DNA of 24,352 nt from a virus. The DNA lies in the IMG/VR virus record IMGVR_UViG_3300010970_000183, positions 1-24,352 of that record; one strand, written 5' to 3'. Position 1 is the stretch's first letter. Each line of letters starts with the position of its first letter. The notes under the pieces are model-generated. The model saw nothing but the letters and a program-made list of their open reading frames with translations. It was not told the DNA's origin and searched no databases. The translations under genes and the position numbers were made by a program. Below are positions 1 through 24,352 of this stretch, piece after piece.

Positions 1-1520
1 CTGTGAACATCCCAGCAGACCCTGCAGTCGTAACTCTGAACGTAGACCACAACCGCGAGGAACCTGTAGGCCGTGCAACTGAGCTCACTGAGACTGCTAC
101 AGGCATCGTAGGTACCTTCAAGATTGCTCAGACTGAAGAGGGAGACCAGCTCCTCGCAGAGATCGCGGACGGCACTCGCGCCAAGCTTTCAGCTGAGGTA
201 AAGAATGTAGTTATCCGAGCTCGTAAAGCTGTATCAGGCTCGCTCTTCGGTGCAGCCGTAGTTGCTCAGGGAGCTTTCCCCTCCGCTGCTCTCCTCGCAG
301 AGTTCGCTGAGGACACTGACCCACAAGAGGAAGAGGAGACCGTGGCAGACGACACGACACTCGAAGCACAAATTCTCGACGTAGTCCCCGACCCCGAGGG
401 CAACACCGAGGAAATTATCGTCGATGACCTGCCCGAGCAGGTTATTGTCGATGTAGTAAACCCTGTGGACGGCACCGTAACCCCTACGGTATTCGTCCCA
501 GAAACCCAACCCAACACACAAGGAGATAACATGGGCGCAGCAACTGCACCTGAGACCCTACAGGCTCACAAGGCTGCGCCTGTATCCGAGGGCCTCAACA
601 CCGTAATCAAGAACCTCAGCGACTCAGCCAAGACTGGTGCTCGCTCGATGTTCGCAGAAATCGCTAAGCGCGATGACGCTCAGGCTGTCACCTCGCTCTT
701 CGCAGCTCTCGAAGACATCAAATACGATGGCGTCGGCTCTGTAGGCGTAAACACTGCTCAGCCTGCATGGCTGGGCGAGCTCTGGGGTGGCAAGTCCTAC
801 CAGCGCAAGTACATCCCACTCATTGGCTCTGGAGCTCTTACCTCTCTCACCATGGAAGCATGGAAGTGGAACGTAAAGCCATCCGTAGCTGAATGGGCTG
901 GTAACAAGAGTGCAGTCCCATCGAACGAACCTTCGACTACTCCAGTCACCGTAAACGGTGTCCGCTACGCCGGAGCCCACGATTGGTCTAGAGAATTTCG
1001 GGATTTTGGGCGCACTGATGTAATCGAGAGCGCATTGCGACTCATGACTGAGTCCTACGCTATGGTCACTGACATTGCAACCATCGAGGGACTCCTCGCA
1101 GGCGCTACTGACGTAGTCGCAGGCTCTGCTACCACTCAGGTAGCTTGGAACCGCATCATGGATGGTATCGAGGCAGTTATCGACGTAGCTACTCCTACCT
1201 TCGCAGTAGTTGCTCAGGACCTGTACCGCGAGCTGGTCATGACCACCTCAAACGACAGCCTGGCTTACCTGAACGCATCACTGGGCCTCGAGTCCGGTAC
1301 CGCTGCAGGTTTCCAGATTATCCCCTCGAGCGAACTCGCAGACGGAAACGTCCTCGTTGGATCGCGCGAAGCTGCAACCTCCTACGAGCTCGGTGGCTCG
1401 CCTATCCGCGTAGAGGCTGAGGCCATCTCCGTAGGTGGCTTCGACATCGGTCTCTTCGGATACCACGCAGTACACGTTGCAACGCCTCTCGGCCTTGCTC
1501 TTGTGGCACCTGCTGCCTAA
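1..1520 (+). CDS. HK97-type prohead protease fused to major capsid protein, unit A (5' end outside window)
   Basis: This is the C-terminal 500-odd residues of a capsid maturation protease joined in frame to the major capsid protein. The GTG at position 3 is an internal valine codon: it aligns with the valine in GTVDIPSDP, about residue 47 of the unit B copy, so the gene begins upstream of the window. The protease part has the likely catalytic His in NVDHNREEPVGR and the likely Ser in RAKLSAEVKN, the layout expected of the S78 prohead protease family. A long acidic linker rich in Asp, Glu and Val follows, which could act as a scaffold or delta-like domain. The capsid part begins near MGAATAPETLQ. 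The unit B homologue is highly similar. Fusion of protease and capsid is known in some phages. The capsid fold is inferred from gene order and overall resemblance. Confidence 0.85.
   Translation, partial: VNIPADPAVVTLNVDHNREEPVGRATELTETATGIVGTFKIAQTEEGDQLLAEIADGTRAKLSAEVKNVVIRARKAVSGSLFGAAVVAQGAFPSAALLAEFAEDTDPQEEEETVADDTTLEAQILDVVPDPEGNTEEIIVDDLPEQVIVDVVNPVDGTVTPTVFVPETQPNTQGDNMGAATAPETLQAHKAAPVSEGLNTVIKNLSDSAKTGARSMFAEIAKRDDAQAVTSLFAALEDIKYDGVGSVGVNTAQPAWLGELWGGKSYQRKYIPLIGSGALTSLTMEAWKWNVKPSVAEWAGNKSAVPSNEPSTTPVTVNGVRYAGAHDWSREFRDFGRTDVIESALRLMTESYAMVTDIATIEGLLAGATDVVAGSATTQVAWNRIMDGIEAVIDVATPTFAVVAQDLYRELVMTTSNDSLAYLNASLGLESGTAAGFQIIPSSELADGNVLVGSREAATSYELGGSPIRVEAEAISVGGFDIGLFGYHAVHVATPLGLALVAPAA
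520..533 (+). promoter_or_regulatory. Internal Shine-Dalgarno and in-frame ATG inside the fusion gene, unit A
   Basis: AAGGAG at 520-525 lies five bases before an in-frame ATG at 531. It is one of the best ribosome binding sites in the window, yet it lies in the middle of an open frame. The same element occurs at the matching place in unit B, so it is conserved. Confidence 0.7.
531..1520 (+). CDS. Nested major capsid protein (internal start), unit A
   Basis: Translation from the internal ATG would give a 329-residue capsid protein lacking the protease and acidic linker, about the size of a mature HK97-fold subunit. The unit B nested product is also exactly 329 residues, whereas the linker just before the ATG differs in length between the units. 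This suggests that the product boundary is under selection. Internal starts that adjust head-protein ratios are established (lambda C/Nu3), but here the nested product would be the capsid protein itself. That this start is used is inferred from the ribosome binding site. The alternative is that the fusion is made and cut by its own protease. Confidence 0.6.
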   Translation: MGAATAPETLQAHKAAPVSEGLNTVIKNLSDSAKTGARSMFAEIAKRDDAQAVTSLFAALEDIKYDGVGSVGVNTAQPAWLGELWGGKSYQRKYIPLIGSGALTSLTMEAWKWNVKPSVAEWAGNKSAVPSNEPSTTPVTVNGVRYAGAHDWSREFRDFGRTDVIESALRLMTESYAMVTDIATIEGLLAGATDVVAGSATTQVAWNRIMDGIEAVIDVATPTFAVVAQDLYRELVMTTSNDSLAYLNASLGLESGTAAGFQIIPSSELADGNVLVGSREAATSYELGGSPIRVEAEAISVGGFDIGLFGYHAVHVATPLGLALVAPAA

Positions 1521-1530
1521 GTAACTCCAT

Positions 1531-1570
1531 GAGAGGGGGCCAGTCCCTACCCCTGCGGCGGTCCCCTCTC
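1531..1570 (+). other. Hairpin after the capsid gene, unit A
   Basis: GAGAGGGG at 1531-1538 pairs with CCCCTCTC at 1563-1570. The stem extends inward with a G-T pair, C-G and C-G, to about 11 pairs. The loop holds TACCCCTGCGG, which unit B shares. No T-run follows, so a classical intrinsic terminator is doubtful. A partial terminator, RNA processing site or mRNA stabiliser for the abundant capsid message fits as well. Confidence 0.6.
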
Positions 1571-1598
1571 TCCCCCTCACACTTGAAAGGAAGCCCAC

Positions 1599-2237
1599 AT
1601 GGCTATTATCCCCGTCATTGACCTGGGCTCCCTATGGGTAGGAGACGTTCCCTTCTCTCCCACACGTGCAGACTTCGTAGACGAAGTAGGCGCTCCCGTC
1701 CAAATTTCTGAATATAACGCCTGGACAGCCATCATGCTGGGCCCAGATTTTACTGAGCTGGGCACACTCACCGGCACTGGACACGGACAGCACCTAGAGT
1801 TCACTTGGCCCACAGAGAGCATCCTCGAGCTTCCTGGACGCCACCAGATTATCGTGACCTTCACCGATACTCTCGGCGTAACCGTCCAGACTGAGCCCTT
1901 CAGCTTCGTAGTCCAGGAAGTAGACGGCTGGCTCACCCTCGAGCAGGCACGCTCACAGTGGGCAGACGCTCCACTAGACGACGTCTTCCTCGCCCAAATT
2001 CTCGACGCTGCTAAAGTGCAGTGCATCGCATACGCTCCAGCTCTCCTCCTGGGCGCTGTAGTCCCTGTGAACTACCTCCACGCGCAGCTTATGCAGGCCC
2101 GTGCACTGTATCAGTCAGTCATCGCTAACCAGCAGGATAACGTAGGCGTAGACGGCTTCCAGGTCCGCGTGTTTCCTCTAGATTTCACCATCCGTGCTCT
2201 GCTCCGTCCTAAAAAGGCTTTCGGAGGAATGTACTGA
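1599..2237 (+). CDS. Head-to-tail connector with N-terminal Ig-like domain, unit A
   Basis: A 212-residue protein immediately after the capsid gene, where siphoviruses of actinobacteria encode the head-tail adaptor. Residues 1 to about 108 look like a beta-sandwich (alternating hydrophobic strands ending in FSFVVQEVDG). The remainder begins DGWLTLEQARSQWAD and contains a helical segment ending in VFPLDFTIRALLRPKK, which resembles actinophage connector proteins. The start ATG follows GAAAGGA with good spacing. The stop TGA overlaps the ATG of the next gene (TGATG), so the two are translationally coupled. The C-terminal half is much better conserved between the units than the N-terminal half, which fits an exposed N-terminal domain. 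Confidence 0.65.
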   Translation: MAIIPVIDLGSLWVGDVPFSPTRADFVDEVGAPVQISEYNAWTAIMLGPDFTELGTLTGTGHGQHLEFTWPTESILELPGRHQIIVTFTDTLGVTVQTEPFSFVVQEVDGWLTLEQARSQWADAPLDDVFLAQILDAAKVQCIAYAPALLLGAVVPVNYLHAQLMQARALYQSVIANQQDNVGVDGFQVRVFPLDFTIRALLRPKKAFGGMY

Positions 2238-2605
2238 TGTCAGTCCGTAGTGAGCTCGCAGCTGCACTGAAGCCGCTGCTCCCTGCATCGGTGAAAATCA
2301 TCGACGTGCCACGATCTATAGACGGCATGGAAGCTAAGCGTCCAGTAGTCCTCCTGTACCGTGAAAGCCGCGCTAAAGCTCCTAACGCCATGGGCGACTA
2401 CTTCGACACCTTCGCGCTGTACGTCGTAACTCCAGGCGTAGACGTACGTCGCTCAGAGGATGCTCTAGACGATGCACTGGATGCTGTCGTAGACGCTCTA
2501 GACCAAATCAAGTGGCTGCAGTGGACTAGCGCCGAGCGCTCAATCTTCGGAGACAATCAGGCTCCGGCTTATAAAATAACCCTGACCATCGTATACAACA
2601 AGTAA
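2237..2605 (+). CDS. Tail terminator protein, unit A
   Basis: A 122-residue protein starting MSVRSELAAALKPLLP and ending AYKITLTIVYNK. This pattern, with a central DALDDALDAVVDAL helix, resembles actinophage tail terminator proteins, which cap the tail tube and join it to the head. It lies directly before the major tail protein, the usual place for a terminator. Its ATG overlaps the upstream TGA. The unit B copy has the same length and is nearly identical in protein despite many silent changes. Confidence 0.65.
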   Translation: MSVRSELAAALKPLLPASVKIIDVPRSIDGMEAKRPVVLLYRESRAKAPNAMGDYFDTFALYVVTPGVDVRRSEDALDDALDAVVDALDQIKWLQWTSAERSIFGDNQAPAYKITLTIVYNK

Positions 2606-2615
2606 GGATAACCAA

Positions 2616-3026
2616 ATGGCACAGATTGCTGTTCAGCCTATCTACCTGAAGGACTGTGTCCTCTCGGTGGCTGGGTCTGATTTTGAAAAGGCAGTTAGCT
2701 CTGTAAGCTTCACCCCTTCGGTAACTACCGCTACCTTCAAGGGACTTGAGCCTACTGCAGTGTTCACGAACGTAGGAAGCTCTACCTGGATGGTAGACAT
2801 CGCTTACGCTCAGGACTGGGAGACCACCGGCTCTCTGTCTGCATACCTCTTCGCTAACGAAGGCGCAGAAGTTACTCTGACCTTCGAGCCCGTAAACGGC
2901 GGCTCTTCATGGAGTGCAGACGTAATCATCGTTCCTGGTGCCGTAGGTGGCGCTGTAGACAGCTACGCAGTAGCTACCGTCTCACTCCCTGTACAGGGAC
3001 GCCCCACCTTCACCCCTGCAGTATAG
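2616..3026 (+). CDS. Major tail tube protein, unit A
   Basis: A 136-residue, beta-rich acidic protein (MAQIAVQPIYLKDCVL..., ending QGRPTFTPAV) that follows AAGGATAACC. Size, composition and position between terminator and tape measure fit the tube subunit of a small siphovirus. The unit B protein is the same length, with scattered substitutions mostly in the first two thirds and an identical last 30 residues. Assignment rests on synteny and general character more than on a diagnostic motif. Confidence 0.65.
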   Translation: MAQIAVQPIYLKDCVLSVAGSDFEKAVSSVSFTPSVTTATFKGLEPTAVFTNVGSSTWMVDIAYAQDWETTGSLSAYLFANEGAEVTLTFEPVNGGSSWSADVIIVPGAVGGAVDSYAVATVSLPVQGRPTFTPAV

Positions 3027-3039
3027 GTAGGAGCCTCCC

Positions 3040-3552
3040 GTGGGCGCAATAATCTGGGAATCGAAAGAACTCCAGGCCACTATCCTCGCTTTGAAGATAG
3101 TTGGAAAGGACCTTCGTAAGGAAATCCTAAAGCGCACACGGGAGCTCATCCTAAAAGACTGGGACAGTGCAGTAGCTGATGAGATCAGTACCGTAGGTGG
3201 AGACATCTACGCTACTCGTCTCACTATGCGAAACACCAGGGTAAAAGTAGGTACTCAAGGCTTTACCCTGCAGGCTGCTACACGTGGAACTAAAGCAACG
3301 TCTGGGGGGCTCATCTCCTCCAAGCACTACTATCTTGCTGAGTTCGGTGCAGATAAAAAGGTAGTGCCAGTAAACGGTAGACGTGGAGCCACAAGCTACC
3401 AATATAAGCGAACAGTAAACACCGGCTTTCAGCGACGCGTCAAAAATGGGCGCTACGCTTTCAAGGCCGGAGGTAAGATTATGAACAGGGCCCTAGCGCT
3501 CTACACACAGACCTGTATACAGATGGTCTACGAAGCTTTCGAGAGGAAATAA
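3040..3552 (+). CDS. Basic tail/neck-completion protein, possibly HK97 gp10-like, unit A
   Basis: A 170-residue lysine- and arginine-rich protein with a GTG start after GAGCCTCCC. The segment GGLISSKHYYLAEFGADKK is reminiscent of the (Y)A..vEfGt element in HK97 gp10-type proteins, but gp10 homologues normally precede the major tail protein, so this may instead be a minor tail protein. It occupies the place where tail assembly chaperones usually sit, but I see no second frame suggesting a programmed frameshift. The boundary of the exact inter-unit repeat lies inside this gene: from codon 111 onward the DNA matches unit B exactly. Confidence 0.4.
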   Translation: MGAIIWESKELQATILALKIVGKDLRKEILKRTRELILKDWDSAVADEISTVGGDIYATRLTMRNTRVKVGTQGFTLQAATRGTKATSGGLISSKHYYLAEFGADKKVVPVNGRRGATSYQYKRTVNTGFQRRVKNGRYAFKAGGKIMNRALALYTQTCIQMVYEAFERK

Positions 3553-3557
3553 CGCTT

Positions 3558-4946
3558 ATGGCTGACGCCGGCATTAACATGAGCGCCGATATTGACCCGA
3601 AACCCTTTATAGCCGGTATCGACAATATGGGCGAAGCCCTCGAAGACCTCCAAAAAGAGGTCGAAGACGTCCAAAAAGACGGTGATAAGAGCCTCGAAAA
3701 GCTTGAAAAGAGCTTCGCAGAGGTCGCAAAAGCCTCTCGTAACGCCGGTGATGACGTCCGAAAAGGGCTTGGAGACGGCACAAAACGGGCTGGAAAAGAG
3801 GCTGAAGGGGCTCTAGACGAGTTCAAGAGCGAAGCAAACAGCACCGCTAAAGAGTCTGCAGCATCATTTGATGGCTCTGCAGAGTCGATTGTGGACTCTT
3901 TTCAAGAGATCGCAGCTAATGCGTTCCAAGGTTTCGGCGCAGCCGGTGCAGTAGCTGGTTTAGCCCTCGCAGCCGGTATTGGTATCGCTACGGCAGCATT
4001 TCAGCAATCTGAAGAGGAAGCTCAAAAGGCTAAAGAGCGCATAGGTGAGCTCGGTATAGCGATGATTGACGCCGGTACAGACGGCTCTGTGCCCCTCGAA
4101 AACATCACCGAGAACCTCAAAAACATTGTCACTAACAGCGAAGACGCGGTCAAGGGCTTCAAGGATATTAGTCAGGCATCTAAAACTGCAGGTACAGACG
4201 CTGCAGCCATTGCCATGGCGTATGCAGGTAATGAAGACGCTATCGACGGGCAGATGAAAGCCCTCGAAGACCTCATCGACACTCAGCAAGAGGAAGTCGA
4301 TAAGGCAGCCGAGCATGGCTCACGTTTCGCAGCTATTTCAGACGCCAAACTCAAGGCTTTACAGCTTCAACAATCAGACCTCAAAAAGGTACAGGAAGAG
4401 ACTGAAGCTGCAGCCGAAATTGAGCAGGCATGGCTCGCCTCTGGCGGTGCAGAAATACAGGCTAAAGCCGACGCCGTAGGGCTTATAAACGACGCATACG
4501 ATGAAGTCGTCGGGAGCGTCACCGATTTCGTAAACTCAGAGACTGGCATCCTCGACGTTGAAGCCTATCTAGCAGCCATTGACGCACGCTCTAAGGCTCT
4601 GGAAGACTACCAAACTAACTTAGCTAGTGCCGGGCTCTCTACGGAGCAGAAAGACGCCCTCAACGCCATGGGTGTCGAAGCTGCATCTGCATGGCTTGCC
4701 GGTTATCAGTCAGCAACTCCAGAGCAGCAACAAAAGCTGAAGCAATCACTCACAAACGCTGCTAGTGAAAGCTCTGGCGTGGCTCGCAAAACCATTGACG
4801 ACGCTTTCAAAAAGCCTGTAGACGCTACAGTGAAAGCTATTGCAGATACTGCAAGTGCACGCCGAGACCTAGACAACCTCATCGAAGCTCGCACGGCAAT
4901 CATTAGGGTCGATTTCAGAGACCGAGAAGGGCGACCCATAGGATAA
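3558..4946 (+). CDS. Tape measure protein, unit A
   Basis: A 462-residue, Ala/Glu/Lys-rich, largely helical protein and the longest gene of the tail module. Residues 25-110 have the charge pattern of a coiled coil (EALEDLQKEVEDVQ). A hydrophobic stretch lies at about 125-148 (GFGAAGAVAGLALAAGIGIA), a common feature of tape measures thought to aid membrane passage of DNA. A second helical region covers roughly 225-290. With the known rule of about 0.15 nm per residue, this predicts a tail near 70 nm, very short. It starts after AGAGGAAATAACG, and its TAA overlaps the next ATG. Confidence 0.85.
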   Translation: MADAGINMSADIDPKPFIAGIDNMGEALEDLQKEVEDVQKDGDKSLEKLEKSFAEVAKASRNAGDDVRKGLGDGTKRAGKEAEGALDEFKSEANSTAKESAASFDGSAESIVDSFQEIAANAFQGFGAAGAVAGLALAAGIGIATAAFQQSEEEAQKAKERIGELGIAMIDAGTDGSVPLENITENLKNIVTNSEDAVKGFKDISQASKTAGTDAAAIAMAYAGNEDAIDGQMKALEDLIDTQQEEVDKAAEHGSRFAAISDAKLKALQLQQSDLKKVQEETEAAAEIEQAWLASGGAEIQAKADAVGLINDAYDEVVGSVTDFVNSETGILDVEAYLAAIDARSKALEDYQTNLASAGLSTEQKDALNAMGVEAASAWLAGYQSATPEQQQKLKQSLTNAASESSGVARKTIDDAFKKPVDATVKAIADTASARRDLDNLIEARTAIIRVDFRDREGRPIG

Positions 4947-5299
4947 TGACTACAGTCACTACTAGCTCAGGCGCATCATTTACCCCAAAAGTACGTTACA
5001 CAGCAGGGGACACCTACCCAACACGTAACAAAATCTATGACCTACTCGGCGGAGATGTAGCCGTCACATTCGGCGCAATGCCAAGACGTACCGGCACTTT
5101 CGATTTCATGTTCGAGGATGAGCTTTCGGCTTTCACCGCATACCTAATCATGCGAGACGGCTACGTCATGCAAATCATGGACGTGGACGACATCGGTGCA
5201 AGCCCTATGAACTTCGTGCTCTCTGGCGACATGACTCGCACATGGGATGCTGAAACTAATACTTGGACGGTCTCACTAGACTTTCAAGAGGTAGCATGA
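4946..5299 (+). CDS. Minor tail protein (distal tail-like), unit A
   Basis: A 117-residue protein that starts within the stop of the tape measure (TAATG) and ends in an ATGA overlap with the next gene, so three tail genes are coupled. It contains GDVAVTFGAMPRRTGTFDFM and ends TWTVSLDFQEVA, a beta-rich pattern like short tail-tip proteins that follow tape measures. Position supports a distal tail or tip role. No catalytic motif is visible. Confidence 0.5.
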   Translation: MTTVTTSSGASFTPKVRYTAGDTYPTRNKIYDLLGGDVAVTFGAMPRRTGTFDFMFEDELSAFTAYLIMRDGYVMQIMDVDDIGASPMNFVLSGDMTRTWDAETNTWTVSLDFQEVA

Positions 5300-6531
5300 G
5301 CCTCCCACTGTCTAAACACGTAGCCATAGTTAACTCAACTACCGGCTATGAAAATATGTCCACCATTGACATCGACATCCGCATCGAAGAAACGTGGAGC
5401 CCATACATACAGGGCACACTCACATTTGCAGAAAACTACGTATTAGACCCACGCGCAGGCGACCGGCTCACTATTCTCTTGCAGCAAGAGTTTGGCGCAA
5501 TGCTGCACCCTAGAGACCTCACTAACAGCATCCCCACGGGCTTAGTCTCTGACTACACTGCAGCCTTCACCCCTATGAAGCCTCGCACAATCACCTCTAC
5601 ATACGTGAAATCTTGGAACATTTTTGGCACTGCAGAGCCCATCTCATACTTGACTGCAGGCATAGGCGGAGCAATGGCAGCCTATACTGCAGCCTTCACC
5701 TATGTTTACGATGTCACCCGATACCTCGCAGGCAGTGGAAACCTAAACCCTCCACAGCCCACGGTCTTCTCTGGAGACTTAGGTATCCGCTCCGTCGTCT
5801 ACAATCAGCTCGACCAAACTTACACAGTCTCAGTATCTTCAGACGAAGCCCTCCTCCAAGATTATGCATGGATCTCAGCTACGCCATACACTCCAGCGAC
5901 CACAGACGTCGCTACGCTCACCAATTACGTCTTAGGCAAGATAGGCGCATCGTTAGCCACTGGCAACGCAACGGGAACCTATGACAACACCGTAGTAAAA
6001 TGGCTCCCCGGACAGTCCGGCTGGGACTTCATCAACCCCATTATCCAAGCATCCGATTTGGTGCTCTACTGTGACGAAGGCAGAAATTGGCGGCTCGTAC
6101 CATCCACGGCAACAACTGGCAGCCTCACACTCGACGACACATCCAACATTATTGAGCTCACAACATCCATCGACATTGCACGCGACTATTTCGACTCGTG
6201 TGTCGTCCAATACTCTTGGTATAACGGCACAGCGCAGCAAGTCGCCTACGACATTTATGCCCCCGTCGGCAGTGTCAAAACTAAGAATGTACAAATCTCA
6301 GACACGCCATATCCCGGCACTGGTCTCGCTTATGCACTAACTCAGCGAGCATTGACTCGTAGCGAAATGTTTGAGTTGAAAGCAATCTCCAACTATGACG
6401 CTCGCCCTAGGCAAGAGCTCACTGTGAACGTCACAGACACTGCAACAAAATTAGCCGTAATCTCTTCGATTGCTTGGAGCCTCCCGGCTGATACAATGAA
6501 TATCAACATCCGAAACCTAGTAGAGGTATAA
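5296..6531 (+). CDS. Tail tip/hub minor tail protein, unit A
   Basis: A 411-residue beta-rich protein. The frame is open further upstream, but the ATG at 5296 overlaps the previous stop as ATGA, like most junctions here, and gives the sensible N-terminus MSLPLSKHVAIVNS. It has the size and position of the hub (Tal or gp27-like) protein that binds the end of the tape measure: an early strand region, a central segment with WLPGQSGWDFINPIIQASD, and a C-terminus ending MNINIRNLVEV. The pattern W..L..... followed by paired strands at the end is common in hub proteins of actinophages. Confidence 0.6.
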   Translation: MSLPLSKHVAIVNSTTGYENMSTIDIDIRIEETWSPYIQGTLTFAENYVLDPRAGDRLTILLQQEFGAMLHPRDLTNSIPTGLVSDYTAAFTPMKPRTITSTYVKSWNIFGTAEPISYLTAGIGGAMAAYTAAFTYVYDVTRYLAGSGNLNPPQPTVFSGDLGIRSVVYNQLDQTYTVSVSSDEALLQDYAWISATPYTPATTDVATLTNYVLGKIGASLATGNATGTYDNTVVKWLPGQSGWDFINPIIQASDLVLYCDEGRNWRLVPSTATTGSLTLDDTSNIIELTTSIDIARDYFDSCVVQYSWYNGTAQQVAYDIYAPVGSVKTKNVQISDTPYPGTGLAYALTQRALTRSEMFELKAISNYDARPRQELTVNVTDTATKLAVISSIAWSLPADTMNINIRNLVEV

Positions 6532-6533
6532 CA

Positions 6534-7154
6534 ATGGCAACAGGCTATCTAGACGCTAACGGCATTTGGCAGTATGGCGAAGATGACAGTGACGCGAACT
6601 TCAGTTCGTTACTGAACCGTCTCGCCTCTTCGACGTCTGACGTTGTCGCTAACCCTACCGTTTCGGGCAATATGCGACTAACAAACGTGAACGATGCTTC
6701 AACTACTTCGACAGACCACGCGTTTCAAATTGGCGCATCCGCTGGAACTAATCTTCGTATTGACAATAACGAAATCTTGGTCGCAAACAACGGTGCTGCA
6801 GCGACTCTGAACATAAACCCAAACGCAGATATTTCTATGTCTGGAAGCTCCAACACGGTCACAATGAACGGTCGCTGGATAGCAGCGCATTACCCTTGGG
6901 CACAGTCCGCCGGTAACATCACTACAAGCACGTCTGCACACGTCACCGTCACATTCCCTGCAAGCCGTTTCTCAGTCGGACCAAACGTATCTGTAACAAG
7001 CGTTGCAGGCACTAACGCCGTCTGCACGCCCTACGTAGCGACCGTAAACGCCACCGCAATGACTCTAAGCCTCTACACAACTGCAGGGGCTCGTGTAGCT
7101 CAGAATGTTCAGTGGCTTGCCGTACAAATGACCTCAACAACCGCTGCAGGATAG
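6534..7154 (+). CDS. Tail fibre / receptor-binding candidate with lectin-like C-terminus, unit A
   Basis: A 206-residue protein. The N-terminus MATGYLDANGIWQYGEDD looks like the attachment end of small actinophage minor tail proteins. The middle (about 40-115) is Asn/Ser/Thr-rich with repeating short strands, as in fibre shafts. Residues ~135-202 (VTFPASRFSVGPNVSVTS to VQWLAVQMTST) resemble the H-type lectin fold seen at the tips of fibres. It is the last structural gene before lysis, so it is the best receptor-binding candidate. The lectin resemblance is my reading and not a search result. Confidence 0.55.
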   Translation: MATGYLDANGIWQYGEDDSDANFSSLLNRLASSTSDVVANPTVSGNMRLTNVNDASTTSTDHAFQIGASAGTNLRIDNNEILVANNGAAATLNINPNADISMSGSSNTVTMNGRWIAAHYPWAQSAGNITTSTSAHVTVTFPASRFSVGPNVSVTSVAGTNAVCTPYVATVNATAMTLSLYTTAGARVAQNVQWLAVQMTSTTAAG

Positions 7155-7161
7155 GACTGAA

Positions 7162-7320
7162 ATGCTCGACTTTATCGTCACTTGCCACACTGAAGGCTGC
7201 GACAACGCAGACATCCCCATCGACATCATCGTCGAGGATGCCGAGCCCATCGTCATCTGCGGCGTATGCTCTGTAACCATCATCGACATCGTGGCAAAAC
7301 CTACACCCAAAAAGAAGTGA
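7162..7320 (+). CDS. Small zinc-ribbon-like protein of the tail-lysis junction, unit A
   Basis: A 52-residue protein, MLDFIVTCHTEGCDNADIP at the start and a lysine tail KPTPKKK at the end. Cys8, Cys13, Cys33 and Cys36 (CHTEGC and CGVC) form two knuckles that could hold one zinc ion. The stop overlaps the GTG start of the lysin (GTGA). It is identical in unit B. Function is unknown; similar small proteins are, as far as I recall, frequent beside minor tail genes of actinophages. Confidence 0.7.
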   Translation: MLDFIVTCHTEGCDNADIPIDIIVEDAEPIVICGVCSVTIIDIVAKPTPKKK

Positions 7321-8106: not shown

Positions 8107-8109
8107 CTC

Positions 8110-8316: not shown

Positions 8317-8343
8317 GCGCGACACGCCCGAGATTATCTCCAC

Positions 8344-16404: not shown

Positions 16405-16415
16405 GCAATAAATTC

Positions 16416-16456: not shown

Positions 16457-16483
16457 ACCCCCTCTACTTGAAAGGTGCCTAAA

Positions 16484-17122
16484 GTGGCTTACATCCCAAC
16501 AGCTGACAATCTCGGCTCAATGTATGTTGGCGACCGTCCAGACACCCCGTCAGACATTTTCTTTCACGATGAGACTGGCAACCCAGCCCCAACTAATCAC
16601 TTCAACACGCTCGCCACAACGCTTTACAGTCCAGCCGGTGCATCACTCGGCACGCTGACCACTACAGTCGCAGACGGTCACGGCATCCACGTCGCTTGGG
16701 GCACCACGAGCCTCTTCACCGTCCCCGGTATTTACACTCTCCGCAGCAAGTTCACCGTCACAAATGACCTTCTCGTAAGCGCGGAGCCCCTCCAAATCGT
16801 TATTCAAGCACTCGACGGATGGCTCACTCTTGAGCAAGCTCGCAACCTATGGGCAGACGCTCCCCTCGACGACGTGCTCCTCTACCAAATACTTGAAACT
16901 GCTAAAGCTCAGTGCATCGCATACGCTCCCACCTTCACCGGTACAGTGCCCCTACAGTATGTACAGGCTCAAGGTTTACAGGCTCGCGCAATCTACCAAA
17001 GCGTCATCGCTAACCAGCAAGACAATGTCGGTGTAGACGGTTTCCAAGTTCGCGTGTTTCCCCTCGACTTCACCATCCGCGCCATGCTTCGCCCTAAGCG
17101 TGCAGTAGGGGCGATGTACTGA
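16484..17122 (+). CDS. Head-to-tail connector with N-terminal Ig-like domain, unit B
   Basis: A 212-residue homologue of 1599-2237. An earlier in-frame GTG at 16475 lies on the ribosome binding site GAAAGG. The GTG at 16484 has eight bases spacing, aligns with the unit A start and gives an equal length, so I prefer it. The N-terminal domain differs strongly from unit A (only scattered identities, e.g. the DNLGSMYVGD region), while the part after DGWLTLEQAR is close to identical in protein. Confidence 0.65.
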   Translation: MAYIPTADNLGSMYVGDRPDTPSDIFFHDETGNPAPTNHFNTLATTLYSPAGASLGTLTTTVADGHGIHVAWGTTSLFTVPGIYTLRSKFTVTNDLLVSAEPLQIVIQALDGWLTLEQARNLWADAPLDDVLLYQILETAKAQCIAYAPTFTGTVPLQYVQAQGLQARAIYQSVIANQQDNVGVDGFQVRVFPLDFTIRAMLRPKRAVGAMY

Positions 17123-17490
17123 TGTCCGTCCGTTCGGAGCTCGCTGCAGCACTCAAACCTCTTCTCCCTAACACGGTGAAGATCATTGACGTGCCTCGCT
17201 CAATCGACGGCATGGAGTCGAAGCGTCCCGTGGTCTTGCTCTACCGTGAGAGCCGTGCAAAAGCTCCAAACGCTATTGGTGATTACTTCGACACTTTCGC
17301 CCTCTATGTAGTCACTCCCGGCGTAGACGTTCGCCGTTCAGAGGATGCACTAGACGACACGCTCGACAGTGTCATCGAAGCTTTAGACGCTATCAAGTGG
17401 GTGCAGTGGACTACTGCAGAGCGTTCAGTGTTCGGGGATAACCAAGCCCCGGCGTATAAAATAACCCTAACCATCGTTTACAACAAGTAA
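17122..17490 (+). CDS. Tail terminator protein, unit B
   Basis: A 122-residue homologue of 2237-2605, with the same TGATG coupling to the connector gene. Most differences are silent or conservative, such as NTVKII for ASVKII and ALDAIKWVQW for ALDQIKWLQW, which indicates strong purifying selection on a structural tail component. Confidence 0.65.
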   Translation: MSVRSELAAALKPLLPNTVKIIDVPRSIDGMESKRPVVLLYRESRAKAPNAIGDYFDTFALYVVTPGVDVRRSEDALDDTLDSVIEALDAIKWVQWTTAERSVFGDNQAPAYKITLTIVYNK

Positions 17491-17500
17491 GGATAACCTA

Positions 17501-17911
17501 ATGGCACAGATTGCCGTCCAGCCTATCTACCTAAAGGACGTCGTCCTCACTGTAGACGGCGACACCTACGAAAAGCACGTCTCTGGCGTAACTTTCACCC
17601 CCTCAGTAACGTCTGCAACCTTCAAGGGTCTAAACCCTTCTGCAGTCTTCACTAACGTGGGCGCATCGACTTGGATGATTGACCTTTCATTCGCACAAGA
17701 CTGGGAGACCACCGATTCACTGTCCGCTTACCTTTTCGCTAACGAAGGTGCAGAGATCTCTCTCTCATTCGTTCCCGTATCCGGTGGCGGAACTTGGAGC
17801 GCAACCGTTATCATCGTCCCCGGTGCCGTAGGTGGCGCAGTAGATAGCTACGCAGTAGCAACTGTGAGCCTCCCAGTACAGGGTCGCCCCACCTTCACTC
17901 CAGCCGTTTAG
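17501..17911 (+). CDS. Major tail tube protein, unit B
   Basis: A 136-residue homologue of 2616-3026. Substitutions concentrate in the first 100 residues (e.g. VVLTVDGDTYEKHVSGVTFT), while the last 30 residues are unchanged. It follows AAGGATAACCT and ends ten or so bases before the next GTG start. Confidence 0.65.
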   Translation: MAQIAVQPIYLKDVVLTVDGDTYEKHVSGVTFTPSVTSATFKGLNPSAVFTNVGASTWMIDLSFAQDWETTDSLSAYLFANEGAEISLSFVPVSGGGTWSATVIIVPGAVGGAVDSYAVATVSLPVQGRPTFTPAV

Positions 17912-17924
17912 TAGAGGTGCTCTC

Positions 17925-18437
17925 GTGGGCGCAACAGTATGGGACTCTAAAGAGCTCCAAGCCACTATTTTGGCTCTCAAAGTAGTTGGTAAAGACCTCC
18001 GTAAAGAGATACTGAAGCGCACACGAGAGCTCATCCTCAAAGACTGGGACAGTGCGATCGCTGAAGAGATAAGCACCGTAGGCGGAGACATTTACGCCAC
18101 ACGGCTCACCATGCGAAACACACGCGTGAAAGTAGGAACGCAGGGCTTCACTCTGCAGGCAGCTACACGAGGCACGAAGGCAACATCCGGCGGACTCATA
18201 TCGTCCAAGCATTACTATCTAGCCGAGTTCGGTGCAGACAAGAAAGTAGTGCCTGTAAACGGTAGACGTGGAGCCACAAGCTACCAATATAAGCGAACAG
18301 TAAACACCGGCTTTCAGCGACGCGTCAAAAATGGGCGCTACGCTTTCAAGGCCGGAGGTAAGATTATGAACAGGGCCCTAGCGCTCTACACACAGACCTG
18401 TATACAGATGGTCTACGAAGCTTTCGAGAGGAAATAA
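17925..18437 (+). CDS. Basic tail/neck-completion protein, unit B
   Basis: A 170-residue homologue of 3040-3552. The first 110 codons carry many silent changes and few amino acid changes (ATVWDS for AIIWES, AIAEE for AVADE). From codon 111 the DNA is the same as unit A, because the shared block begins here. This makes the gene a natural place for the crossover between units. Confidence 0.4.
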   Translation: MGATVWDSKELQATILALKVVGKDLRKEILKRTRELILKDWDSAIAEEISTVGGDIYATRLTMRNTRVKVGTQGFTLQAATRGTKATSGGLISSKHYYLAEFGADKKVVPVNGRRGATSYQYKRTVNTGFQRRVKNGRYAFKAGGKIMNRALALYTQTCIQMVYEAFERK

Positions 18438-18442
18438 CGCTT

Positions 18443-19831
18443 ATGGCTGACGCCGGCATTAACATGAGCGCCGATATTGACCCGAAACCCTTTATAGCCG
18501 GTATCGACAATATGGGCGAAGCCCTCGAAGACCTCCAAAAAGAGGTCGAAGACGTCCAAAAAGACGGTGATAAGAGCCTCGAAAAGCTTGAAAAGAGCTT
18601 CGCAGAGGTCGCAAAAGCCTCTCGTAACGCCGGTGATGACGTCCGAAAAGGGCTTGGAGACGGCACAAAACGGGCTGGAAAAGAGGCTGAAGGGGCTCTA
18701 GACGAGTTCAAGAGCGAAGCAAACAGCACCGCTAAAGAGTCTGCAGCATCATTTGATGGCTCTGCAGAGTCGATTGTGGACTCTTTTCAAGAGATCGCAG
18801 CTAATGCGTTCCAAGGTTTCGGCGCAGCCGGTGCAGTAGCTGGTTTAGCCCTCGCAGCCGGTATTGGTATCGCTACGGCAGCATTTCAGCAATCTGAAGA
18901 GGAAGCTCAAAAGGCTAAAGAGCGCATAGGTGAGCTCGGTATAGCGATGATTGACGCCGGTACAGACGGCTCTGTGCCCCTCGAAAACATCACCGAGAAC
19001 CTCAAAAACATTGTCACTAACAGCGAAGACGCGGTCAAGGGCTTCAAGGATATTAGTCAGGCATCTAAAACTGCAGGTACAGACGCTGCAGCCATTGCCA
19101 TGGCGTATGCAGGTAATGAAGACGCTATCGACGGGCAGATGAAAGCCCTCGAAGACCTCATCGACACTCAGCAAGAGGAAGTCGATAAGGCAGCCGAGCA
19201 TGGCTCACGTTTCGCAGCTATTTCAGACGCCAAACTCAAGGCTTTACAGCTTCAACAATCAGACCTCAAAAAGGTACAGGAAGAGACTGAAGCTGCAGCC
19301 GAAATTGAGCAGGCATGGCTCGCCTCTGGCGGTGCAGAAATACAGGCTAAAGCCGACGCCGTAGGGCTTATAAACGACGCATACGATGAAGTCGTCGGGA
19401 GCGTCACCGATTTCGTAAACTCAGAGACTGGCATCCTCGACGTTGAAGCCTATCTAGCAGCCATTGACGCACGCTCTAAGGCTCTGGAAGACTACCAAAC
19501 TAACTTAGCTAGTGCCGGGCTCTCTACGGAGCAGAAAGACGCCCTCAACGCCATGGGTGTCGAAGCTGCATCTGCATGGCTTGCCGGTTATCAGTCAGCA
19601 ACTCCAGAGCAGCAACAAAAGCTGAAGCAATCACTCACAAACGCTGCTAGTGAAAGCTCTGGCGTGGCTCGCAAAACCATTGACGACGCTTTCAAAAAGC
19701 CTGTAGACGCTACAGTGAAAGCTATTGCAGATACTGCAAGTGCACGCCGAGACCTAGACAACCTCATCGAAGCTCGCACGGCAATCATTAGGGTCGATTT
19801 CAGAGACCGAGAAGGGCGACCCATAGGATAA
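18443..19831 (+). CDS. Tape measure protein, unit B
   Basis: Identical in sequence to the 462-residue tape measure of unit A, including the hydrophobic stretch at 125-148. Identity at silent sites over 1.4 kb, against about 15% difference outside the block, shows very recent common origin of this module or an assembly effect. The predicted tail length is the same in both units. Confidence 0.85.
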   Translation: MADAGINMSADIDPKPFIAGIDNMGEALEDLQKEVEDVQKDGDKSLEKLEKSFAEVAKASRNAGDDVRKGLGDGTKRAGKEAEGALDEFKSEANSTAKESAASFDGSAESIVDSFQEIAANAFQGFGAAGAVAGLALAAGIGIATAAFQQSEEEAQKAKERIGELGIAMIDAGTDGSVPLENITENLKNIVTNSEDAVKGFKDISQASKTAGTDAAAIAMAYAGNEDAIDGQMKALEDLIDTQQEEVDKAAEHGSRFAAISDAKLKALQLQQSDLKKVQEETEAAAEIEQAWLASGGAEIQAKADAVGLINDAYDEVVGSVTDFVNSETGILDVEAYLAAIDARSKALEDYQTNLASAGLSTEQKDALNAMGVEAASAWLAGYQSATPEQQQKLKQSLTNAASESSGVARKTIDDAFKKPVDATVKAIADTASARRDLDNLIEARTAIIRVDFRDREGRPIG

Positions 19832-20184
19832 TGACTACAGTCACTACTAGCTCAGGCGCATCATTTACCCCAAAAGTACGTTACACAGCAGGGGACACCT
19901 ACCCAACACGTAACAAAATCTATGACCTACTCGGCGGAGATGTAGCCGTCACATTCGGCGCAATGCCAAGACGTACCGGCACTTTCGATTTCATGTTCGA
20001 GGATGAGCTTTCGGCTTTCACCGCATACCTAATCATGCGAGACGGCTACGTCATGCAAATCATGGACGTGGACGACATCGGTGCAAGCCCTATGAACTTC
20101 GTGCTCTCTGGCGACATGACTCGCACATGGGATGCTGAAACTAATACTTGGACGGTCTCACTAGACTTTCAAGAGGTAGCATGA
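19831..20184 (+). CDS. Minor tail protein (distal tail-like), unit B
   Basis: Identical to 4946-5299: 117 residues, coupled to the tape measure by TAATG and to the hub gene by ATGA. It is probably part of the tip complex. Confidence 0.5.
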   Translation: MTTVTTSSGASFTPKVRYTAGDTYPTRNKIYDLLGGDVAVTFGAMPRRTGTFDFMFEDELSAFTAYLIMRDGYVMQIMDVDDIGASPMNFVLSGDMTRTWDAETNTWTVSLDFQEVA

Positions 20185-21416
20185 GCCTCCCACTGTCTAA
20201 ACACGTAGCCATAGTTAACTCAACTACCGGCTATGAAAATATGTCCACCATTGACATCGACATCCGCATCGAAGAAACGTGGAGCCCATACATACAGGGC
20301 ACACTCACATTTGCAGAAAACTACGTATTAGACCCACGCGCAGGCGACCGGCTCACTATTCTCTTGCAGCAAGAGTTTGGCGCAATGCTGCACCCTAGAG
20401 ACCTCACTAACAGCATCCCCACGGGCTTAGTCTCTGACTACACTGCAGCCTTCACCCCTATGAAGCCTCGCACAATCACCTCTACATACGTGAAATCTTG
20501 GAACATTTTTGGCACTGCAGAGCCCATCTCATACTTGACTGCAGGCATAGGCGGAGCAATGGCAGCCTATACTGCAGCCTTCACCTATGTTTACGATGTC
20601 ACCCGATACCTCGCAGGCAGTGGAAACCTAAACCCTCCACAGCCCACGGTCTTCTCTGGAGACTTAGGTATCCGCTCCGTCGTCTACAATCAGCTCGACC
20701 AAACTTACACAGTCTCAGTATCTTCAGACGAAGCCCTCCTCCAAGATTATGCATGGATCTCAGCTACGCCATACACTCCAGCGACCACAGACGTCGCTAC
20801 GCTCACCAATTACGTCTTAGGCAAGATAGGCGCATCGTTAGCCACTGGCAACGCAACGGGAACCTATGACAACACCGTAGTAAAATGGCTCCCCGGACAG
20901 TCCGGCTGGGACTTCATCAACCCCATTATCCAAGCATCCGATTTGGTGCTCTACTGTGACGAAGGCAGAAATTGGCGGCTCGTACCATCCACGGCAACAA
21001 CTGGCAGCCTCACACTCGACGACACATCCAACATTATTGAGCTCACAACATCCATCGACATTGCACGCGACTATTTCGACTCGTGTGTCGTCCAATACTC
21101 TTGGTATAACGGCACAGCGCAGCAAGTCGCCTACGACATTTATGCCCCCGTCGGCAGTGTCAAAACTAAGAATGTACAAATCTCAGACACGCCATATCCC
21201 GGCACTGGTCTCGCTTATGCACTAACTCAGCGAGCATTGACTCGTAGCGAAATGTTTGAGTTGAAAGCAATCTCCAACTATGACGCTCGCCCTAGGCAAG
21301 AGCTCACTGTGAACGTCACAGACACTGCAACAAAATTAGCCGTAATCTCTTCGATTGCTTGGAGCCTCCCGGCTGATACAATGAATATCAACATCCGAAA
21401 CCTAGTAGAGGTATAA
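20181..21416 (+). CDS. Tail tip/hub minor tail protein, unit B
   Basis: Identical to the 411-residue hub candidate of unit A. The start at 20181 is taken from the ATGA overlap; the longer open frame from 20148 lies inside the previous gene. Sharing this protein unchanged means both units would have the same tail tip. Confidence 0.6.
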   Translation: MSLPLSKHVAIVNSTTGYENMSTIDIDIRIEETWSPYIQGTLTFAENYVLDPRAGDRLTILLQQEFGAMLHPRDLTNSIPTGLVSDYTAAFTPMKPRTITSTYVKSWNIFGTAEPISYLTAGIGGAMAAYTAAFTYVYDVTRYLAGSGNLNPPQPTVFSGDLGIRSVVYNQLDQTYTVSVSSDEALLQDYAWISATPYTPATTDVATLTNYVLGKIGASLATGNATGTYDNTVVKWLPGQSGWDFINPIIQASDLVLYCDEGRNWRLVPSTATTGSLTLDDTSNIIELTTSIDIARDYFDSCVVQYSWYNGTAQQVAYDIYAPVGSVKTKNVQISDTPYPGTGLAYALTQRALTRSEMFELKAISNYDARPRQELTVNVTDTATKLAVISSIAWSLPADTMNINIRNLVEV

Positions 21417-21418
21417 CA

Positions 21419-22039
21419 ATGGCAACAGGCTATCTAGACGCTAACGGCATTTGGCAGTATGGCGAAGATGACAGTGACGCGAACTTCAGTTCGTTACTGA
21501 ACCGTCTCGCCTCTTCGACGTCTGACGTTGTCGCTAACCCTACCGTTTCGGGCAATATGCGACTAACAAACGTGAACGATGCTTCAACTACTTCGACAGA
21601 CCACGCGTTTCAAATTGGCGCATCCGCTGGAACTAATCTTCGTATTGACAATAACGAAATCTTGGTCGCAAACAACGGTGCTGCAGCGACTCTGAACATA
21701 AACCCAAACGCAGATATTTCTATGTCTGGAAGCTCCAACACGGTCACAATGAACGGTCGCTGGATAGCAGCGCATTACCCTTGGGCACAGTCCGCCGGTA
21801 ACATCACTACAAGCACGTCTGCACACGTCACCGTCACATTCCCTGCAAGCCGTTTCTCAGTCGGACCAAACGTATCTGTAACAAGCGTTGCAGGCACTAA
21901 CGCCGTCTGCACGCCCTACGTAGCGACCGTAAACGCCACCGCAATGACTCTAAGCCTCTACACAACTGCAGGGGCTCGTGTAGCTCAGAATGTTCAGTGG
22001 CTTGCCGTACAAATGACCTCAACAACCGCTGCAGGATAG
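21419..22039 (+). CDS. Tail fibre / receptor-binding candidate, unit B
   Basis: Identical to 6534-7154. If the C-terminal lectin-like region sets host range, the two phages represented here would bind the same receptor, a condition that would allow co-infection and recombination. Confidence 0.55.
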   Translation: MATGYLDANGIWQYGEDDSDANFSSLLNRLASSTSDVVANPTVSGNMRLTNVNDASTTSTDHAFQIGASAGTNLRIDNNEILVANNGAAATLNINPNADISMSGSSNTVTMNGRWIAAHYPWAQSAGNITTSTSAHVTVTFPASRFSVGPNVSVTSVAGTNAVCTPYVATVNATAMTLSLYTTAGARVAQNVQWLAVQMTSTTAAG

Positions 22040-22046
22040 GACTGAA

Positions 22047-22205
22047 ATGCTCGACTTTATCGTCACTTGCCACACTGAAGGCTGCGACAACGCAGACATC
22101 CCCATCGACATCATCGTCGAGGATGCCGAGCCCATCGTCATCTGCGGCGTATGCTCTGTAACCATCATCGACATCGTGGCAAAACCTACACCCAAAAAGA
22201 AGTGA
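22047..22205 (+). CDS. Small zinc-ribbon-like protein, unit B
   Basis: Identical to the 52-residue protein of unit A (CHTEGC and CGVC pairs). Its stop overlaps the lysin GTG. It is too short for many gene callers. Confidence 0.7.
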   Translation: MLDFIVTCHTEGCDNADIPIDIIVEDAEPIVICGVCSVTIIDIVAKPTPKKK

Positions 22206-22825
22206 CCACTCAGCTCGTAAACCCAAACCCCGGCGTGAAAGACTACGCCGGGTTTTGTCTACGCTTCACACAAGCGGTTTACGGAGCACCAGCACAACAC
22301 TCAAGCGCATGGGCTGCATGGGAAGCCACAAGCTACAAACACAGCACCGCTGAAAGCATCCCAGCGATCTCAGTCCCAGTATGGTTTAGCCACTACGGGA
22401 CATACGGCGAACCCCCCACATACGCAAACTGGGGGCACGTCGTCGCCTACATCCCCGGCACCGGATACCTCTCCAGCCCCGGAGAAGGCTACGGCTCACA
22501 AATCTTTGACAGCATCCAAGCCGTAGAGACCTATTTCAACGCCCATTATGTAGGCTGGAGTGAAGACCTCAACGGTTTACGCATAGCTGAAGTAACAAAT
22601 ACCCCGACAAATAGTAAAGGCGACACTGAAATGCTCATGATTCACAAGCCCAGCGGAGACGCAAACGTCTACCGTTACGCCGTCTTCTCTGGCAGTTTCT
22701 GGCTCGAGTTCGTCGGGCAAGATGCAGCTAATGGCTTTGCGCGCCAAATCGGGGCAGGCTCCGTCCTCGTATCTAGCGACTTCTGGAATGTTTGCAAAGC
22801 ATCTGCCCAGGCTGGGACTAAGTAA
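22202..22825 (+). CDS. Endolysin, CHAP/NlpC-P60-like peptidase, unit B
   Basis: A 207-residue lysin, identical to unit A through codon 173, including Cys19 and His79. It then diverges: ANGFARQIGAGSVLVSSDFW replaces ANGFSAQIGAASVKVTNDFW, and the end is AGTK. The stop TAA overlaps the holin-like ATG by one base, whereas in unit A the overlap is eleven bases. Confidence 0.7.
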   Translation: MTTQLVNPNPGVKDYAGFCLRFTQAVYGAPAQHSSAWAAWEATSYKHSTAESIPAISVPVWFSHYGTYGEPPTYANWGHVVAYIPGTGYLSSPGEGYGSQIFDSIQAVETYFNAHYVGWSEDLNGLRIAEVTNTPTNSKGDTEMLMIHKPSGDANVYRYAVFSGSFWLEFVGQDAANGFARQIGAGSVLVSSDFWNVCKASAQAGTK

Positions 22826-22989
22826 TGCCTAGCGAAAAGATACGCGCATACATCTACCGCGTACTCCTCGCAGTCTCTCCTCTAGTGGCCTTCTACGGGC
22901 TCCTCAGCGCAGATGAAATCGCGCTCTGGCTAGGTGTAGCATCTACTGCGCTAAACATCATGCCAGCGATGAATACAACTACGAAGTGA
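22825..22989 (+). CDS. Holin-like small membrane protein, unit B
   Basis: 54 residues, MPSEKIRAYIYRVLLAVSPL..., with the same two hydrophobic segments as in unit A and a few substitutions (EIALW for ELALW, NIMPAMNTTTK at the end). The conserved membrane pattern in a diverged DNA context shows that this unannotated-size gene is real. Confidence 0.65.
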   Translation: MPSEKIRAYIYRVLLAVSPLVAFYGLLSADEIALWLGVASTALNIMPAMNTTTK

Positions 22990-23222
22990 TGGGCGAGCTC
23001 GACGGCCTCACAGCGGACCTCCGCTGGATAAGGAAGAATATGGAAAGCCACGACACCATCCTGGCTGAAATCTTTGAACGATTACGCAAAATTGAGACTG
23101 ATCTAGCAGCTATCGAAGCTAAGCAAAAGCCACCCATCTCAGGCTGGGCCATCTTCGGTATCATCGCCTCAGTCATGGCTACAGTCCTCATCATCCTGGA
23201 CCGTATCTACGTCAATCAGTAG
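22986..23222 (+). CDS. XhlA-like coiled-coil/membrane protein (second holin candidate), unit B
   Basis: A 78-residue protein starting GTGATG inside the holin-like stop (an ATG at 22989 is the alternative start). Residues 5-48 form a charged coiled coil (LRWIRKNMESHDTILAEIFE, then RLRKIETDLAAIEAKQ), followed by a membrane helix WAIFGIIASVMATVLIILD. This is the layout of hemolysin XhlA/holin-associated proteins. It is unrelated by eye to the unit A protein at this place (8110-8316), which points to gene replacement. Confidence 0.6.
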   Translation: MMGELDGLTADLRWIRKNMESHDTILAEIFERLRKIETDLAAIEAKQKPPISGWAIFGIIASVMATVLIILDRIYVNQ

Positions 23223-23261
23223 AAGAGTCTCCTCCGCGACACGCCAAGGGGACTTTCCTAC

Positions 23262-23291
23262 TTGACAATGTAATACGATGTAACGCATACT
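23262..23291 (+). promoter_or_regulatory. SigA-type early promoter, unit B
   Basis: TTGACA at 23262-23267 and CATACT at 23286-23291, 18-base spacer, as in unit A. The spacer has ATGTAA-TACG-ATGTAA, a direct repeat, in place of the unit A inverted repeat. Confidence 0.7.
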
Positions 23292-23301
23292 GAATACATC
23301 A

Positions 23302-23316
23302 CCGCCAAACGAAAGG
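23302..23316 (+). repeat. Leader motif, early operon of unit B
   Basis: CCGCCAAACGAAAGG, an exact match to unit A 8391-8405 although the bases around it differ. It contains the ribosome binding site. Confidence 0.65.
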
Positions 23317-23323
23317 AAACACC

Positions 23324-23512
23324 ATGAAACTCACCTTCAACTCAGCAGACATCTTCGACATGGTCGTAGACGAACAGCTCGGCCCTCAGCAGCTCGAGGA
23401 AATCGCTAACCAAATGTACCTCCAGCGTCGAGGCGGAGAACTCTCACACCTCTGGGAGTCTGAAGAGTTCACTCAGTCACTCGCTGCTCAGCTGGACCTG
23501 TTCAACCTATGA
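23324..23512 (+). CDS. Conserved small early protein of unknown function (62 aa), unit B
   Basis: MKLTFNSADIFDMVVDEQLG... is the homologue of 8413-8601, with the same length, start context and ATGA junction to the next gene. Differences are few at protein level (A/S, V/A, H/P, A/S, Q/E) but many at silent sites, which confirms selection for the protein. Confidence 0.75.
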   Translation: MKLTFNSADIFDMVVDEQLGPQQLEEIANQMYLQRRGGELSHLWESEEFTQSLAAQLDLFNL

Positions 23513-23691
23513 AACTCCAACTAGACTCCGAGACAGACGCCAAACTCAACCAAGCAATCAAGGCGCAGCCTAAGATGCTGGACGAGCTCCTCGAGCAGTA
23601 CCAGGTAAGTGACCACAGCATCGAAGCGCTTACAAACCTACTAGCAGCCAAATATAAAGCCATCCTGAATGGGGAAGTTGAATATGAATAA
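23509..23691 (+). CDS. Conserved small early protein of unknown function (60 aa), unit B
   Basis: The homologue of 8598-8783, one residue shorter at the C-terminus. SDHSIEALTNLLAAKYKAIL is the best kept part. It overlaps the RHH gene by eight bases. Confidence 0.7.
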   Translation: MKLQLDSETDAKLNQAIKAQPKMLDELLEQYQVSDHSIEALTNLLAAKYKAILNGEVEYE

Positions 23692-23815
23692 TCGCAGCAT
23701 ACGCATCCCAGAAGACCTCCTCTACGCCCTGCAGCTCATCGCAGAGCAGGAAGACCGAAGCGTCTCAGATTGCATCCGTCAAGCCATCAAGCAATACGCG
23801 TCCAGGATGCTCTGA
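23684..23815 (+). CDS. Ribbon-helix-helix micro-regulator, unit B
   Basis: 43 residues, MNNRSIRIPEDLLYALQLIA..., with the RHH core DRSVSDCIRQAIKQY unchanged from unit A. Isoleucine-arginine-isoleucine in the strand would contact DNA. Pro replaces Ser after the strand, the more usual RHH residue. Confidence 0.75.
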   Translation: MNNRSIRIPEDLLYALQLIAEQEDRSVSDCIRQAIKQYASRML

Positions 23816-23931
23816 TGATGGCTGTACTCTGTGAAAATCATAAATACCTCTGGGGACGTCTCCCACTAGACCACATCTGTGAGTTCGTGCTGTACGTACA
23901 CTGCACGAACTGCATCATAGACAACGATTAG
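23815..23931 (+). CDS. CxxH/CxxC zinc-knuckle microprotein, unit B
   Basis: 38 residues, coupled to the RHH stop (TGATG). CENH and CTNC ligands are retained while the segment between has changed (HICEFVLYVH for HIIDFVAFVG). An extra Cys appears before EFV. Confidence 0.65.
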   Translation: MMAVLCENHKYLWGRLPLDHICEFVLYVHCTNCIIDND

Positions 23932-23943
23932 AAAGGCAACACC

Positions 23944-24327
23944 ATGGCAGCACCAGCAGGCTACGTAGACGTAGCAGCACGCATCAGAGAGTTCCACCAG
24001 AAACACCCAGAAGGCTCACTCCAGACAGTCTCAATCGAGTTCCAGGAAGTAGCAGGCCAGATGCTCGTCATATACACAGCAGCTGCCTATCGCTCACCAG
24101 ACGATGTCCGCCCAGGCATCGCCATCGCCTCAGAGCCTTTCCCTGGTAAAACAAACTTCACCAGAAACTCCGAAGTCATGAATGCAGAAACATCAGCCTG
24201 GGGCCGTGCCATCATCGCAGCAGACGGTAGCATCGTCTCTAAGAAAATAGCCTCAGCAGAAGAGGTAGCAAACAGGATGGCACCTGAAGCCTGGGCTCCA
24301 CCTAAAGGCCCTGCAGCATCCTGGTAG
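23944..24327 (+). CDS. Conserved actinophage early protein, possibly recombination-related, unit B
   Basis: A 127-residue homologue of 9024-9404. The core from YVDVAARIREFHQKHPEGSL to NAETSAWGRAIIAADGS is nearly unchanged. The first six residues and the last twenty differ. GAAAGG lies seven bases before the ATG. The window ends before the ATPase gene that should follow. Confidence 0.55.
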   Translation: MAAPAGYVDVAARIREFHQKHPEGSLQTVSIEFQEVAGQMLVIYTAAAYRSPDDVRPGIAIASEPFPGKTNFTRNSEVMNAETSAWGRAIIAADGSIVSKKIASAEEVANRMAPEAWAPPKGPAASW

Positions 24328-24332
24328 GCGAA

Positions 24333-24352
24333 AGGCCCTGAGGAACTCAACT
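24333..24352 (+). other. Left arm of a probable hairpin cut by the window end, unit B
   Basis: AGGCCCTGAGG lies six bases after the stop, at the place of the unit A hairpin (AGCCCTAGG arm). The partner arm would lie beyond the window. Confidence 0.3.

Follow-up and report, generated by a model that had tools for sequence, protein, structure and literature searches.

The IMG/VR record IMGVR_UViG_3300010970_000183, a viral metagenome contig that we analysed over its whole public length of 24,352 bp (hereafter the window), is very likely an assembly chimera of two co-occurring actinobacterial phages of approximately 15 kb that share an exact block, called R below. A genome joined in this way most probably does not exist as a molecule. 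This reading is based on the exact repeat, the equivalence of the assembly graphs, the single capsid gene and the size of the relatives, and on the finding that capsids A and B of the window have different ancestries.

Organization of the contig

The window is linear, with no end repeats, and no RNA families or tRNAs were found in it. Its elements, all on the + strand, follow the order capsid A, R, early region A, large terminase (TerL), portal, capsid B, R and early region B. TerL and portal genes are present once and the fused protease-capsid gene twice. There is only one full unit, P1, of 14,885 bp (3370-18254), which comprises the tail genes, early region A, TerL, portal and capsid B and closes on itself through R. 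The second phage, P2, adds 3,369 + 1,630 bp of its own sequence (1-3369 and 22723-24352, the latter being early region B) plus R. The two genomes of ~14.9 kb announced in the original prediction are thus seen as one full unit of that size and one partial unit whose length is assumed. P2 would lack ~5.4 kb, comprising TerL, portal, the start of the capsid gene and the remainder of early region B.

Alignment of the two ends of the contig delineated R as a direct repeat of 4,468 bp without any mismatch (3370-7837 and 18255-22722, offset 14,885), in agreement to the base with the predicted coordinates. Its edges are abrupt, with the last mismatch at position 3369 and the next one at 7838. The flanks are homologous but diverged, with 59-84% nucleotide identity per 250-bp bin, including between 1-3369 and 14886-18254, and with such divergence an exact run of 4,468 bp is impossible by chance. 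The offset, predicted to be constant, is 14,885 in and near R; elsewhere it drifts from 14,872 to 14,917 because of indels.

The first copy of R extends from the end of gene 3040-3552, which starts in the P2 part, through most of gene 7266-7949, which ends in early region A. In between are genes for a tape measure protein (3558-4946), a protein of the 4946-5299 frame, a minor tail protein (5263-6531) and a tail fibre-like protein (6534-7154). The genes spanning the edges of the second copy are 17925-18437 on the left and 22151-22825 on the right, the latter ending in early region B. Matches were found in R to Corgi gp11 and to the Corgi tape measure protein, together with PHROG tail matches. 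In relatives with capsids 85-97% identical, the counterparts of the main tail proteins of R (3558-7154) reach only ~31-54% amino acid identity; R is the variable module of the family, conserved less than any other part of these phages. A scan with the minor tail protein of R as the query retrieved no relative.

On the P2 side, the 5'-truncated protease-capsid gene of capsid A (3-1520; PHROG major head protein, 9.4e-59) is followed by head-tail genes (1599-2237 and 2237-2605) and by a major tail protein gene (2616-3026; PHROG, 8.5e-12). The corresponding stretch of P1 between the portal and R (14740-18254) encodes capsid B (14740-16404; PHROG major head, 2.5e-67; Phage_capsid_4; 97% amino acid identity to L013, a related contig described below), head-tail proteins (16475-17122 and 17122-17490), a major tail protein (17501-17911) and the start of 17925-18437. 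Substitutions between A and B at first, second and third codon positions number 54/35/204 in the capsid genes (204 of 293 at third positions) and 6/1/55 in the gene to the left of R. This predominance of third positions indicates that both units carry functional phage genes, orthologues under selection.

Early region A (7838-12160) encompasses small genes (8110-8316, 8344-8601, 8598-8783 and 9024-9404) and those for an AAA/RecA-like ATPase (9500-10402; 94% amino acid identity to its homologue in a complete 15.2 kb relative), RusA (11163-11552) and an HNH protein (11884-12156). It runs into the sole TerL gene (12161-13672; PHROG_9, 1.3e-62), whose product is 88-91% identical to those of the closest IMG/VR relatives and ~35% identical to those of Arthrobacter phages. 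Early region B, with genes 22986-23222, 23324-23512, 23509-23691 and 23944-24327, is a diverged homologue of early region A in the alignable stretches. The gene that directly follows R in unit B (22986-23222) lacks close relatives within the compared set. In unit A, the equivalent gene (8110-8316) shows 62-94% conservation across five relatives; from these comparisons, the position is likely a site of gene replacement.

The structural genes are open except that of the portal (13693-14736), which matches PHROG_12 on both pieces and is interrupted by an in-frame TGA at 14119-14121. Close relatives covering this site have a tryptophan codon there (TGG to TGA, one base), and the frame is otherwise open on either side. 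The stop may reflect either an error in the sequencing or the consensus, or a genuine nonsense mutation.

Equivalence of one contig and two molecules

At all values of k examined (31 to 4,469), the k-mer set of the window is identical to that of a 14,885-bp circle (3370-18254) plus a 9,467-bp linear molecule, in which 1-7837 is joined to 22723-24352 (capsid A, R and early region B). With k=127, branching occurs at just two nodes: one at 3370, the entry into R from either capsid, and one at 7712, from which R continues into early region A or early region B. The graph is thus a loop with a single way in and a single way out, and one trip round it writes exactly the 24,352-bp contig. Reads or mate pairs shorter than R cannot distinguish one contig from two molecules.

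The prediction had invoked a figure-eight graph whose single walk would be a circle of ~29.8 kb. The collapse of two genomes onto a shared block is supported; with the second genome present only in part, the graph itself is a loop with two tails rather than the predicted figure-eight of 29.8 kb. The ~29.8 kb circle is an extrapolation, as the record is linear, devoid of an end repeat and, at 24,352 bp, shorter than 29,770 bp.

Of the 24,226 k-mers at k=127, 19,884 are distinct (ratio 1.22). The exact repeat represents 18.3% of the contig, and the homologous span, diverged outside R, ~39%; the CheckV filter requires a duplicated region of at least 20%. Exact-DNA scans of IMG/VR for the R pattern that we tried and for the right end of the contig found no other contig, near-identical records possibly lying outside the scanned set; they recovered neither P2 as a separate entity nor an independent junction.

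Related phages and natural genome size

Relatives were collected by TerL and capsid searches of IMG/VR, and 47 distinct records were searched over their whole length. All 47 have one capsid gene (matched in two pieces in some cases) and none has two. Except for a 55 kb contig, the records (46/47) do not exceed 17,562 bp, which places the window well above the family size.

The nearest closed relative, 3300043429_000342 (L010/L011/L014/L016), is 15,163 bp long after subtraction of a 127-bp end repeat from its 15,290 bp, and 3300010388_000185 (L008) has a net length of 14,736 bp (14,791 bp raw, 55-bp end repeat). Overlaps of 127 and 55 bp are of lengths typical of assembler k-mers, to which odd direct terminal repeat lengths have been attributed (PMC8116208). 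We left L047 out of the circularity evidence, its locus lacking 32 bases of its contig. Both closed circles match P1 in size, gene content and gene order. Capsid B is 93% identical at the amino acid level to the capsid of 3300043429_000342 and 76% to that of 3300010388_000185, and TerL is 81-89% (in two pieces) and 72% identical, respectively. They differ from the window in that each has a single capsid and a single tail module, and their main tail proteins are ~37-49% identical to those of R.

The named relatives in terms of TerL are small Arthrobacter siphoviruses of 15-16 kb, namely Corgi, Noely, BlueFeather and Yavru, as well as Decurro of cluster AN. Their genes follow the same order, i.e., terminase, portal, fused capsid/protease, adaptor, terminator, major tail protein, tape measure, minor tail proteins, early genes and HNH. 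In the window, tblastn searches with the Corgi proteins located terminase, portal, capsid, adaptor, gp11 and tape measure in the Corgi order, with HNH before the terminase in the circle as in Corgi. The Arthrobacter phages differ by their ~28-44% amino acid identity, the absence of detected nucleotide similarity and a single unit per genome; when 50,697 phage records were searched with the nucleotide sequence of the window, none matched. A host among Actinobacteria is suggested by these relatives. The 14,885-bp unit fits the 14-16 kb range of small actinobacterial siphoviruses, cluster AN genomes averaging 15.5 kb and that of Rhodococcus phage RRH1 being 14,270 bp (PMC5513430), and the prediction had rightly cited the latter as a precedent for minimal genomes of ~14.2 kb.

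P1 is supported by the k-mer equivalence and by closed relatives matching it in size, gene order and single capsid. The predicted view of two related minimal siphoviruses sharing one exact block is likewise supported by that equivalence, the one-capsid relatives and the 14.7-15.2 kb closed relatives.

Two other observations were made among the related sequences. In L013 (7,377 bp), whose capsid is 97% identical to capsid B, a TerL fragment (positions 7230-7376, residues 417-465, 94% amino acid identity) sits directly behind a tail gene, contrary to the usual order; this end resembles either a deletion or a further chimeric junction. More distant capsid genes, with a terminase ~1-4 kb upstream, are chromosomal in Glaciihabitans, Frigoribacterium, Promicromonospora and Corynebacterium (L092-L096), and the phages concerned could therefore be integrated elements or temperate phages.

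Two lineages and their pairing

Capsid A groups with that of L007 (support 100/99), and capsid B falls with those of L013 and L014 (support 92/95). The placement of A and B with different phages recurs for gene 2 and for the major tail protein. We considered duplication of a single ancestor within one genome and rejected it, since the A and B versions of these three proteins join different phages.

Early region A, TerL, portal and capsid B lie together on uninterrupted, non-repeated sequence (7838-18254), and the 15.2 kb circle of the closest closed relative likewise carries the homologues of both capsid B and early region A. This relative is 88% identical at the nucleotide level to the TerL-to-capsid B stretch, with 94% amino acid identity for the ATPase, versus ~76% nucleotide identity to capsid A and 73% to early region B. 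The shared stretch and the higher identity make the combination of capsid B, R and early region A in P1, and of capsid A, R and early region B in P2, the simplest pairing. Based on these comparisons we regard it as likely, favoured rather than proven given the mosaicism among relatives, and relatedness to individual relatives is suggestive only, as neighbouring genes differ in their nearest relative. The prediction had deemed the pairing undetermined; the bases alone do not fix it, and the comparison tips it towards capsid B with early region A.

Origin of the joined sequence

We propose that two related siphoviruses of Actinobacteria, each of ~15 kb, occurred together in the sample; both would have acquired the 4,468-bp R through recent recombination. 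P1, complete, would have assembled as a circle (R, early region A, TerL, portal and capsid B, 3370-18254). P2, visible only as capsid A, R and early region B, was probably less abundant. In the graph, P1 would then form a loop attached at R, whose entrance and exit would be P2 sequence. If the reads could not bridge R, an assembler rounding the loop once would have written capsid A, R, the remainder of P1, R again and early region B.

Short-read assemblers normally stop at repeats of 4.5 kb. The length of R therefore counts against a chimera, as its traversal should normally have required loop handling or long reads. So does the outcome of the exact-DNA scans, in which no separate P2 contig turned up, near-identical records possibly lying beyond their reach. 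Some IMG/VR contigs that are longer than expected and repeat a genome were described in the CheckV study as probable assembly artefacts (PMC8116208), and among public phage sequences artificial concatenation has been discussed as well (PMC7111523). Like the former, the window is an over-long contig with a large duplicated stretch. Unlike in those concatemers, its copies represent two strains identical only in R, and it would therefore score low in an exact-duplication test.

The prediction had also allowed for a single crossover as an alternative to the assembler. Its core reading is supported, and sequence alone does not separate the two routes. Co-infecting phages could have crossed over in R or formed mixed concatemers, leaving transient intracellular DNA that precedes cutting and packaging. 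Cohesive ends normally imply concatemer formation, and mosaicism is evident among the relatives. Small actinobacterial siphoviruses of cluster AN do have 11-base cohesive ends (PMC5513430). Such a molecule would be indistinguishable from a chimera by sequence, but it would be a rare junction that has to dominate the assembly although the parental units should be far commoner, and we consider this origin unlikely. A real heterodimer, i.e., one ~29.8 kb molecule formed via the identical tail modules and combining two capsids with one tail type, is highly improbable. Still less credence can be given to a stable phage or plasmid-like genome of ~29.8 kb that carries the capsid gene, the early region and R in duplicate. 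This is the literal reading of the contig, and the structural genes apart from that of the portal are open, but one capsid per record (47/47) and lengths of at most 17.6 kb (46/47, the 55 kb contig excepted) are the rule among relatives, which package ~15 kb (15.5 kb in cluster AN, 14,270 bp in RRH1; PMC5513430). Moreover, capsids A and B come from separate single-capsid phages, and there is no closure at 29.8 kb. Two related prophages in tandem within a host chromosome are equally hard to credit. Distant capsid relatives do reside in Glaciihabitans, Frigoribacterium, Promicromonospora and Corynebacterium genomes, but the window has no integrase match among the proteins scanned, no host gene, no tRNA and no junction resembling an attachment site; its early genes run unbroken into TerL, and the unit closes exactly on R.

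Implications

Taken at face value, the contig describes a two-capsid phage at twice the family size and would mislead studies of gene counts, genome sizes and taxonomy. It also illustrates that filters based on exact duplication can miss two-strain chimeras. With the contig read as a chimera, the biology that remains is a mismatch-free tail module in two phages that differ by ~20% elsewhere, although an assembler merging near-identical strains could have hidden small differences in R. That the most variable part of the family is identical in both phages fits a recent exchange of host-recognition genes. Modular exchange of tail genes is already well known and corresponds to ordinary phage mosaicism. 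If the two phages are separate, their tail module was exchanged or inherited very recently, which suggests a common host.
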